Shown here piece by piece: positions 54,496-56,938 of a stretch of 64,000 nucleotides of DNA. The translations under genes and the position numbers were made by a program. The notes under the pieces are model-generated. The model had not been told where the DNA came from. It saw only the letters and a list, made by a program, of their open reading frames with translations, and made no database searches. This DNA is from Saccharopolyspora galaxeae (lineage in GTDB: Bacteria > Actinomycetota > Actinomycetes > Mycobacteriales > Pseudonocardiaceae). Numbering within the stretch: the stretch's first letter is position 1; each line of letters begins with the position of its first letter. Location of the stretch: contig NZ_JADDUE010000009.1 of the NCBI RefSeq assembly GCF_016526145.1, positions 186,001-250,000 on the forward strand, read 5' to 3'.

Positions 54496-55704
54496 TCACC
54501 GGTACTTCTTGAGCTCCCGGCGAGCCATCGAACGGCGGTGCACCTCGTCGGGGCCGTCGACGATGTGCAACGTGCGGGCGTGCGCGTACAGGCTCGCCAG
54601 CGGCGTGTCCTGGCTGACCCCGGCGGCGCCGTGCGCCTGGATGGCGCGGTCCACAATGGTCGTCACCATCTGCGGCACCGCCACCTTGATCGCCTGGATC
54701 TCGGTGTGCGCGCCCTTGTTGCCGACGGTGTCCATCAGCCACGCGGTCTTGAGCGTCAGCAGCCGGTTCGTCTCGATGCTGATGCGGGCATCGGCGATCC
54801 ACTGCTGCACCACGCCCTGATCGGCGATCGGTCCGCCGAACGCCCGGCGGCTCGTGACGCGGCGGCACATCAGCTCCAGCGCGCGCTCGGCCATCCCGAT
54901 CGCGCGCATGCAGTGGTGGATGCGGCCAGGGCCGAGGCGCGCCTGCGCGATGGCGAAACCCTCGCCCTCGCCGGAAATGATGTTCTCGGCCGGGACGCGG
55001 ACGTCGTCGAACACGATCTCGGCGTGCCCACCGTGGTCGCCGTCGTCGTAGCCGAACACGTGCATGCCGCGCTCGATGCGCACGCCAGGGGTGTCGACCG
55101 GCACCAGGATCTGGCTCTGCTGGCGGTGCCGCTCTGCCTCCGGGTCCGACTTGCCCATCACGATCAGCACCTTGCAGCGGGGGCTCATCGCGCCGGACGA
55201 CCACCACTTGCGGCCGTTGATCACGTAGGAGTCGCCGTCGCGCTCGATGCGGGTGCCGATGTTCGTCGCGTCCGAAGACGCCACCTCCGGCTCGGTCATG
55301 CAGAACGCCGAGCGGATCTCGCCGTCCAGCAGCGGTTTCAGCCACCGCTCGCGCTGCTGCGGGGTGCCGAACTCGGCCAGCACCTCCATGTTGCCGGTGT
55401 CCGGCGCCGAGCAGTTGAACACCTCCGGCGCCAACGTGGGACTGCGGCCCATGATCTCCGCCAGCGGGGCGTACTGCAGGTTCGTCAGCCCGGCGCCGTC
55501 CGCGCCCGGCAGGAACAGGTTCCACAGGCCGCGCTCGCGGGCCTTGGCCTTGAGCTCGTCGATGATCGGTGCGTGCGTCCACCGGCTGTCCGCGGCCGCG
55601 AGCTGCTCGTGCAGCACCGGCTCGGCCGGGTGGACGTGCTCGTCCATGAACTCGGTGAGCTGCGCGCGCAGCTGCTCGGTGCGGTCGTCGTACCCGAAGT
55701 CCAC
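54496..55704 (-). CDS. Acyl-CoA dehydrogenase, ACAD10/11-like
   Basis: A 402-residue acyl-CoA dehydrogenase of the branch that travels with APH-type kinases. Motifs: [16 protein letters not shown] and [15 protein letters not shown] for flavin and substrate, [21 protein letters not shown], and [21 protein letters not shown] near the end. The [12 protein letters not shown] and WWSSGA forms are characteristic of the ACAD10/ACAD11/LvaC group. The GTG at 55704 is preceded by GGAGG at 6 nt. That ribosome site directly abuts the MITE. With the upstream kinase it probably removes phosphate from a 4-phospho-acyl-CoA to give the enoyl-CoA (family-based inference). Confidence 0.9.
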
Positions 55705-55714
55705 GCCATGCCTC

Positions 55715-55919
55715 CTAGGGAGTGTTTTGAAAGGGTGTGCGTAGTGGGTCACCCAGCGGAACCTCAGACGTCTTCTGGCTCCGGGATCTCCTCCTTAAGT
55801 AGCGCCCTACTCGGCGTCTGAGCTGTCCTCGCCAGAAGACGCCTGAGAACCCGCCGGTGGTCCGGCTGAGTCCTGGGGCACCGGCAAGCGGCTGGCGCCG
55901 CTTATGAAACAGTTCCTAG
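55715..55919. mobile_element. MITE (197 bp) with CTAG target duplications, inserted in the acyl-CoA operon
   Basis: The element body is 55719-55915, flanked by CTAG at 55715-55718 and 55916-55919. The ends are imperfect terminal inverted repeats: left GGAGTGTTTTGAAAG, right (read inward) GAACTGTTTCATAAG, similar to ends of IS5-like elements. Inside is a longer inverted repeat, CTCAGACGTCTTCTGGC (55763-55779) and GCCAGAAGACGCCTGAG (55831-55847), 16 of 17 paired. No coding frame. Removing the element and one CTAG joins the kinase stop TAG directly to the GGAGG of the next gene. Confidence 0.85.
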
Positions 55920-56938
55920 TCGAGTGCGGACAAGCCCTGCGCGACCAAGTGCTCGACCAGGGCTCCGACGTGCTCGAAGCCCTCGCCGACCGTCTGGCCG
56001 TGCACGTAGCGGTAGTGGATGCCCTCGCTGATCACCGCGAGCTTGAAGAAGCCGAACGCCACGTACCAGTCCAAATCGGACAGATCGATGCCGCTGCGGG
56101 CGGCGTAGCGGTCCCACAGCTCGCGGACCGGCGGGAACCCGTACTCCGGGCCGATGCCCTTGGCGATCGGGTTGTACTCGACGCCGTCCATGCCTTCCCA
56201 GTACACCTTGAGCAGGCCCACGTCGGTGAGCGGATCGCCGAGCGTGGCCATCTCCCAGTCGAGCACCGCCGAGATGTTGCGCTGCTCGTCGACCAGCACG
56301 TTGTCCAGCCGGTAGTCGCCGTGCACGATGCCGGCGTGCCGGGTCGGCGGCACGCGCTCGCCCAACCGCTGCGCCAACCGGTCGATGCCCGGGATCTCCC
56401 GGCTGTGCGAGGCCGCGAGCTGCTTGCTCCAGCGGCGCACCTGCCGCTGGAGGAAGCCCTCCGGGCGGCCGAAATCGCCCAGCCCGACCTGCTCGGGATC
56501 CAGCGTGTGCAGGTCCGCGAGCACGTCCGCCAGCTGCATGGACAGATCACGGCGCTGCCCGGCGTCGAGCTGCGCGGTCTGCTCCGGCGAGCGGTACACC
56601 GTGCCCGGCACGAACTCCATCACGTAGAACGGCGCGCCGATGACGTCCTCGTCCTGGCACAGCAGGTAAGTCCGCGGCACCGGCACCGAAGTGCCCGCCA
56701 GCGCCGACATCACGCGGTGCTCGCGGCTCATGTCGTGCGCCGTGGCCAGCACGTGACCGAGCGGCGGGCGGCGCACCACCCAGCGGTTCGCGCCGTCGCC
56801 GACGATGTAGGTGAGGTTGGAGCGGCCGCCCTGCACCAGCTCCGCGGTCAATGGTCCCGCGGTCAGGCCCGGCAGCTGCGACTCCAAGTGTTCGCGCAAC
56901 CGGGACAGGTCCAGGCCGGGTGGGTCGCCAGCGCTCAT
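55916..56938 (-). CDS. Aminoglycoside-phosphotransferase-fold acyl-CoA kinase (ACAD10/11 kinase domain, LvaA-like)
   Basis: A 340-residue protein with the APH kinase fold. Nucleotide site LVQGGRSNLTYIV, Lys-containing strand WVVRRPP, then the catalytic loop IVHGDYRLDNVLVD (HGDxxxxN) and metal Asp in AVLDWEMATLGDPLTDVG. The combination fits the kinase part of ACAD10/ACAD11 and LvaA, which phosphorylate the 4-hydroxyl of 4-hydroxyacyl-CoA, rather than antibiotic kinases. The stop codon TAG lies within the CTAG duplicated by the MITE. It is 84 bp downstream of the HAD gene and upstream of the matching dehydrogenase. Confidence 0.9.
   Translation of the reverse strand: MSAGDPPGLDLSRLREHLESQLPGLTAGPLTAELVQGGRSNLTYIVGDGANRWVVRRPPLGHVLATAHDMSREHRVMSALAGTSVPVPRTYLLCQDEDVIGAPFYVMEFVPGTVYRSPEQTAQLDAGQRRDLSMQLADVLADLHTLDPEQVGLGDFGRPEGFLQRQVRRWSKQLAASHSREIPGIDRLAQRLGERVPPTRHAGIVHGDYRLDNVLVDEQRNISAVLDWEMATLGDPLTDVGLLKVYWEGMDGVEYNPIAKGIGPEYGFPPVRELWDRYAARSGIDLSDLDWYVAFGFFKLAVISEGIHYRYVHGQTVGEGFEHVGALVEHLVAQGLSALD

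Follow-up and report, generated by a model that had tools for sequence, protein, structure and literature searches.

A mobile, probably IS5-type MITE family of the Pseudonocardiaceae, often docked at stop codons, with a hairpin that probably behaves as DNA

The insert that separates a kinase gene from an acyl-CoA dehydrogenase gene in Saccharopolyspora galaxeae is very probably an IS5-type non-autonomous MITE belonging to a family of the Pseudonocardiaceae, with a hairpin that is most likely a DNA palindrome and not a selected mRNA structure. The element is mobile, as filled and empty alleles occur both between species and within one species, and it has terminal inverted repeats and a TA/TNA-type duplication. 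New in this work are the MITE family, a partner IS for one of its subfamilies, its docking at stop codons and the signs that its hairpin behaves as DNA. The window, i.e. the whole stretch of 64,000 nucleotides that was analysed, lies within contig C34 of a genome of 6.40 Mb in 34 contigs (G000). The features around the insert are collected in Table 1.

Table 1. Features of the insertion site and of the window copy (positions within the window; A1, alignment of family copies; R1, covariance model of the family)
Feature	Position	Strand	Remarks
Upstream gene, APH-family phosphotransferase (kinase)	55916..56938	-	PF01636, 187 bits; ends at the right tip of the element
Downstream gene, acyl-CoA dehydrogenase	54496..55704	-	GTG start, intact Shine–Dalgarno
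MITE	55718..55916	+	199 bp if the target duplication is TA; 197 bp (55719-55915) if it is CTAG
Left CTAG, putative target duplication	55715..55718	.	Empty site of congeners: CGAG/CTCG
Right CTAG	55916..55919	.	Contains the kinase TAG stop on the minus strand
Left terminal repeat GGGAGTGTTTTGAAAG, subfamily A	55718..55733	+	Repeat also in other copies
Right terminal repeat GGAACTGTTTCATAAG, subfamily A (as reverse complement)	55901..55916	-	11/16 identical to left
Conserved core	55738..55906	+	Full match to R1, 174.9 bits
Main hairpin, 5' arm, helices 1 and 2	55756..55779	+	A1 columns 21-47
Main hairpin, 3' arm, helices 1 and 2	55831..55854	+	A1 columns 114-139
Small hairpin AAGCGGC-TGGC-GCCGCTT, helix 6, by the right tip	55886..55903	+	A1

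Positions 55715-55919 of the window consist of CTAG, 197 bp and a second CTAG. On the minus strand the kinase gene ends in GAC TAG and the start region of the dehydrogenase gene reads AGGAGGCATGGC-GTG. An earlier note on this DNA had proposed that taking the element out would restore an operon junction, and that relatives lacking the element could be aligned to check this. The stop codon, the Shine–Dalgarno sequence and the GTG start are indeed arranged as it described, and the alignment shows an insertion: all four of the other Saccharopolyspora congeners searched (G001-G004) have an empty junction, and another strain of the window's species, G041, carries the element there, at 99.6% identity. 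The exact form of the empty site was not as proposed, however. In the four congeners it reads GACGAGGAGGCATGACATG and not the predicted GACTAGGAGG, with GACGAGGAGG at the place of the inferred sequence; the congener kinase has three additional codons, and a single base separates its TGA from the dehydrogenase ATG. The CTAG found on both sides, which the earlier note took for a target duplication, is therefore present at the window copy but is not seen at the empty site of the congeners, and the duplication at this site depends on one assumed substitution. The gap between the two genes is 1 nt in the congeners versus 211 nt with the insertion, and since a 1-nt junction has been replaced by one of this length, an effect on the coupling of kinase and dehydrogenase is a reasonable prediction.

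The same acyl-CoA operon hosts copies at two more junctions in G001 (4418112 and 4419139) and also in G003, so copies within operons are evidently tolerated. A copy upstream of the kinase occupies one orthologous site in G001 (4414961), G003 (2170689) and G004 (4362142), and is missing from G000.

Genome-wide counts were made at E <= 1e-8 with the covariance model R1, which was built from 51 copies. These yield 37 copies in G000, 33 in G041, 126 in G004 and at least 150 each in G001, G002 and G003; the density in G001, 24 copies per 400 kb, extrapolates to ~400 per genome. Of 150 Pseudonocardiaceae genomes sampled, at least 39 have an R1 match under stricter filters, with up to 19 candidates scored for each genome; they cover at least 13 of 46 genera. 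A scan for an exact pattern that spans a portion of the 5' arm gave at least 108 named loci (L059-L166), with the organism shown for 80; the genera among the matches listed are Saccharopolyspora, Amycolatopsis, Halopolyspora, Sciscionella and Pseudonocardia. Alignment A1 leaves out the partial or disrupted copies L022, L024, L025, L042 and L043, as well as L031 and L048, which repeat L001 and L002. For the 24 copies of G001, matching-place copies were found for 10 in G003 and for 2 in G004, one of these only loosely. At three loci compared, G001 and Saccharopolyspora sp. NFXS83 are 93.6%, 94.3% and 89.4% identical.

Short (about 200 bp), non-coding and dispersed copies of this kind are what is expected of a MITE, as are the terminal inverted repeats, which are imperfect in the window copy and clear in subfamily B (see below). 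The earlier note had argued for a MITE from such repeats and from an inner inverted repeat, in which 55756-55779 pairs with 55831-55854; both are present, and the further copies in the same genome and the empty sites in congeners bear the proposal out. It had named two observations that would speak against a MITE, namely the same 200 bp as ordinary intergenic sequence in relatives, or a lack of other copies and related IS ends. Given the many copies and the empty sites, neither applies.

The tips of the element come in different forms. Subfamily A, which includes the window copy, has tips of the form GG-NNN-TGTTT, with the pattern GG(A/T)(G/T)NTGTTTNN(G/A)AA. The tips of subfamily B are like GGAGTCCTTTCAGAATG and GGAGTCGTTTCAGTATG; their pattern matches 13 times in G000 and 10 times in G041, and a reversed control gives 0 matches. 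A hairpin-less copy of 100 bp keeps both tips, with TTAG at both sides. A candidate partner for subfamily B is a 908-bp IS, present in four copies in G003, whose ends GGGGTCCTTGCAGAATG and GGGGTCCTTTCAGAATG agree with the subfamily B left tip at 15/17 and 16/17 bases. TTA stands on both sides of all four copies, and the transposase belongs to the IS5 family (NF033580, 231 bits against a cut-off of 110) with DUF4096 and DDE_Tnp_1 domains. Ends in common with an autonomous IS5-family IS (16/17 bases) were found for subfamily B only. For subfamily A, inverted tip pairs 700-1800 bp apart numbered 0 in the DNA stretches examined, and the nearest IS is an element of G041 with tips GGGCGTGTTGCTAAA (11/15) that lies between CTA and TAG. 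The suggestion of the earlier note, mobilisation in trans by an IS5-like transposase from a full-length IS with the same ends, thus gains a concrete candidate for subfamily B; for the window copy's own tips no exact partner was found in those stretches. Two other leads were set aside: the tips (AACGTTGTCTCGTAAC) of the single PF13359/PF01609 IS of G000 (885 bp) do not match, and PF13340 alone proved no guide to a partner IS, with 0 matches in G000 and 2 in G041.

The family also has dealings with further repeats. In genome G016, the copies L410, L414 and L418 (and L400, on one side only) carry a 950-bp IS with tips GTGCCTGTTTTTGATC that has entered the element hairpin at CGGAACCTCA and repeats TCA (or TGA) there; the flank of L406 is less clear. 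Other ISs therefore use the MITE repeat as a landing site. The right end of one subfamily merges into short repeats like CACGGCTTCGCCGCAAGGCA, resembling arrays of small palindromes (G001 4387621, 4395301 and 4440264; G003 2189597 and 2195078).

Ten sites were compared between the two strains of the window's species. Two of these, L168 and L173, are filled in G000, with CTAG and TAG repeated respectively, and cleanly empty in G041; together with C34:67521 they provide the target duplications and empty sites that are characteristic of MITEs. L341 is filled in G041 only, and L169, L177 and L188 are filled in G000 only, with untidy borders. The main hairpin has been lost from L189 and L192 in G041 and from L324 in G000, the loss at L189 being situated between GGAACC and GAACCC, and L323 is interrupted by another IS in G000.

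Some individual copies deserve mention. At L177 (G000 C21:28935) the insertion, judged by eye, apparently provides a gene with its TAG stop; in G041 the reading frame of this gene continues. The repeated flank at G001 site 4422184 is apparently longer (about 8 bp) than TNA. This flank and the untidy borders named above are points against the reading as an IS5-type MITE. Three G000 copies, L186 (end of C12), L196 (start of C10) and L365 (end of C8), are interrupted by another IS end at the same place, after GGGTAGC and before AGGTAGCGG. The assembly breaks there, the G041 alleles are intact, and the tail of the interrupting IS has a weak likeness to an integrase-core transposase (rve_3, 20.8 bits, under the cut-off).

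The position of the element relative to genes was analysed for 207 pooled full copies, each a distinct place, with site-inherited copies of sister species counted separately. Gene context was taken from our own codon-bias gene caller rather than from annotation, and 12 copies were dropped that had no called gene on both sides, leaving 195. With the left tip defined as 20 nt ahead of the core, and docking as a distance of -6 to +2 nt from the stop, the left tip lies at the stop codon of the upstream gene in 86 of 195 copies (44%), compared with expectations of 3.7% for random intergenic TNA sites and 7.0% for CTNAG sites. The left-hand gene is co-oriented with the element in 152 of the 195, and between co-directional genes there are 83 sense versus 31 antisense copies (p = 1e-6). 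The window copy belongs to the antisense minority, and here it is the right tip that adjoins the stop. As CTNAG is a palindrome, no orientation bias would follow from the target by itself. We think that docking and sense bias arise by selection among insertions, as gene ends would tolerate insertions and one orientation would be less harmful than the other.

The pairs of the hairpin core covary strongly. In the alignment behind R1, pairing holds in 94.9% of cells and double changes affect 16 of 37 pairs; these amount to 189 double-change cells, compared with a shuffle mean of 54 and 9-29 in slid controls. A further alignment, A3, holds 62 of the at least 108 named loci (18 loci of Saccharopolyspora sp. 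NFXS83 and 28 without shown names were left out), and its copies share no 115-base stretch with the R1 rows. Here 95.9% of cells pair, 20 pairs have double changes, and there are 317 double-change cells against a shuffle mean of 96 and 9-40 in slid controls. Since the selecting pattern fixed no more than a portion of the 5' arm, pairing by the 3' arm was unforced. The window insert itself folds better than 200 of 200 dinucleotide shuffles, both as RNA of the minus strand (z -4.56) and as DNA of the plus strand (z -4.57). A known RNA family is ruled out as its identity by the lack of an acceptable Rfam match: the window copy has 0 matches up to E 1, and 16 family loci have 2 up to E 5, both far under the gathering score. 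A search of the window copy for a sigma-70-like promoter and an intrinsic terminator found 0 of each.

The wobble pairs carry a different message from that of the covariation. The ratio of G-T to A-C is 23:36, 15:52 and 17:19 in three alignments (for A2, the first 51 of 73 rows were tallied); for comparison, nine tRNAs from this DNA have 13:0. Fisher tests of hairpin against tRNA give p-values from 1e-7 to 6e-4, with related copies treated as independent. This pattern speaks against RNA pairing as the force that preserves the hairpin, and so bears on the structured RNA that the earlier note placed between the two genes. The internal-loop letters CGGGATC and GCTGTCC are kept across genera, which makes it likely that some selection acts on the hairpin fold or the loop.

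Comparison of the two strains gives a view of recent change. Over 27 allele pairs, 53 of the 2764 hairpin columns differ. Of these, 33 are substitutions and 20 are gaps, which stem mostly from a single apical insertion (L196/L335). In the flanks 136 of 22081 columns differ, counted over stretches of at least 300 bases with no more than 40 differences. In the allele alignments the pairs L183/L327 and L028/L346 were mistakenly matched to coding sequence. There is thus no sign of strong locus-by-locus purifying selection. At the apex of L196, G000 has an extra TCATAGGTCCGGGC-like segment that is absent in G041 (L335); similar segments are found in other G000 copies. A scripted count finds 18 changed pairs between the strains, 5 changed on both arms and 13 on one. 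By rough arithmetic, about 0.1-0.2 double pairs would be expected if the arms changed independently (about 1.2% substitutions, very roughly 900 pairs).

The apex has flipped between GTATGCCCATAC-like and GTAG-CTAC states at L178, L182, L186 and, in a pair that the script misaligned, L191, and both states are found in other copies, so conversion between copies can explain these flips. At L336, a mid-stem G-C to A-T change has produced a 5' ten-mer, CTTCCTCACT, that is absent from the other loci examined (54 in G000, 30 in G041), and the 3' ten-mer also occurs in L199/L350; this case hints at arm-templated correction. That said, single-sided changes outnumber double ones (13 to 5), which counts against a hairpin whose arms change together, as does the conservation of the internal-loop letters, which arm correction alone would erode.

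Taken with G-T pairs that are not favoured over A-C, the pairs changed on both arms suggest a hairpin at the DNA level whose arms change in concert, not an mRNA structure kept by selection. In our preferred scenario the window copy would have been inserted in trans by an IS5-family transposase, its target being a CTAG where the kinase gene ends; owing to the target duplication, the kinase stop codon and the dehydrogenase Shine–Dalgarno would both have stayed intact. The arms of the hairpin could then change together by hairpin-templated correction or by conversion between copies. A host might instead keep the element as an mRNA structure after stops, e.g. as a 3'-end stabiliser, a processing site or a terminator, with selection on the RNA fold producing covariation, docking and sense orientation alike. 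The stop-codon docking with its sense bias, the strong covariation and the RNA fold score all fit such a role, and MITEs of this kind are described as altering mRNA in the relevant passages of PMC2229807. We nevertheless regard this as unlikely, as G-T is no commoner than A-C, which is not so in the tRNAs of this DNA, and the allele hairpins differ as they do when set against their flanks. Furthermore, the hairpin is lost at some loci, and the window copy is antisense and has no terminator-like site.

Hairpins maintained as DNA would also suit a single-strand Y1/HUH (REP/RAYT-like) transposase, which would recognise the hairpin and place the element beside a tetranucleotide; the repeated CTAG would then be no true target duplication. 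Several old copies do have unlike tetranucleotides on the left and right, and GTAG motifs lie ahead of the hairpin. This mechanism is highly improbable given the terminal inverted repeats in common with a DDE (IS5) IS that has TTA repeated at 4/4 copies, the hairpin-less copies that retain both tips and TTAG on both sides, and the repeats of CTAG or TAG on both sides of clean insertions within the species. As for the 200 bp being ordinary conserved intergenic sequence, its presence in both strains of the species is in keeping with this, but the absence from the junction in 4/4 other congeners and the 37 dispersed copies rule it out, leaving it practically no probability.

Beyond the reading as an IS5-type MITE with a DNA palindrome, a bolder picture can be offered tentatively, as possible but rather doubtful. 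The conserved core, and not the ends, would define the element; different IS5 lineages would have given it tips, and other ISs would enter the core. Strand fold-back in living cells would keep the arms complementary, such that copies record hairpin extrusion and templated arm repair, and the stop codons would be reached by directional target choice.

The family is of wider use for several reasons. By extrapolation, some relatives carry hundreds of copies at the gene ends of antibiotic-producing actinomycetes. The family offers within-species filled and empty allele pairs as well as a candidate transposase, and its copies document in nature how long DNA hairpins change. It also provides a warning, that strong covariation alone need not indicate a functional RNA.

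We found no earlier description of this MITE family in the open-licence PMC literature. Software-predicted MITEs in Pseudonocardia contigs cannot be matched to it, as the sections that report them give no sequences (PMC12542641). The closest known kind are MITEs of the YPAL/ERIC/NEMIS type. YPAL, or RU-2, of Yersinia (MITEs of about 168 bp) inserts just after stop codons. Like the present family it is high-copy, non-coding and hairpin-forming, with target duplications and with empty and filled sites (PMC2229807). Unlike YPAL, the present family has terminal repeats with TA at both ends, a TA/TNA duplication and IS5-type tips, and is a GC-rich family of the Pseudonocardiaceae; for YPAL, the passages that treat it describe termini without TA, internal inverted repeats and duplications of 3-26 bp (PMC2229807). 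ERIC/IRU and Correia/NEMIS are presented in the corresponding passages as small MITEs with TA at their termini, terminal repeats and hairpin transcripts (PMC2229807). When compared by description, the present family differs from these in a core that is conserved over subfamilies with differing tips, and in tips that match an IS5-family IS. RUP of Streptococcus pneumoniae is, in the part of the same source devoted to it, a MITE tied to the autonomous IS630-Spn1 via matching terminal repeats, with a TA target (PMC2229807); unlike RUP, our family has an IS5-family partner, a larger hairpin core and stop-codon docking. Finally, the GTAG-tagged REPs are palindromes found in high copy near genes, whose termini often supply a TAG stop in the account given by the relevant sections of PMC3733652. 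REPs measure 20-40 bp, in contrast to an element of about 200 bp with the terminal repeats of a DDE-type IS, and the DDE-type partner of subfamily B likewise sets the present family apart from the REP/RAYT systems.
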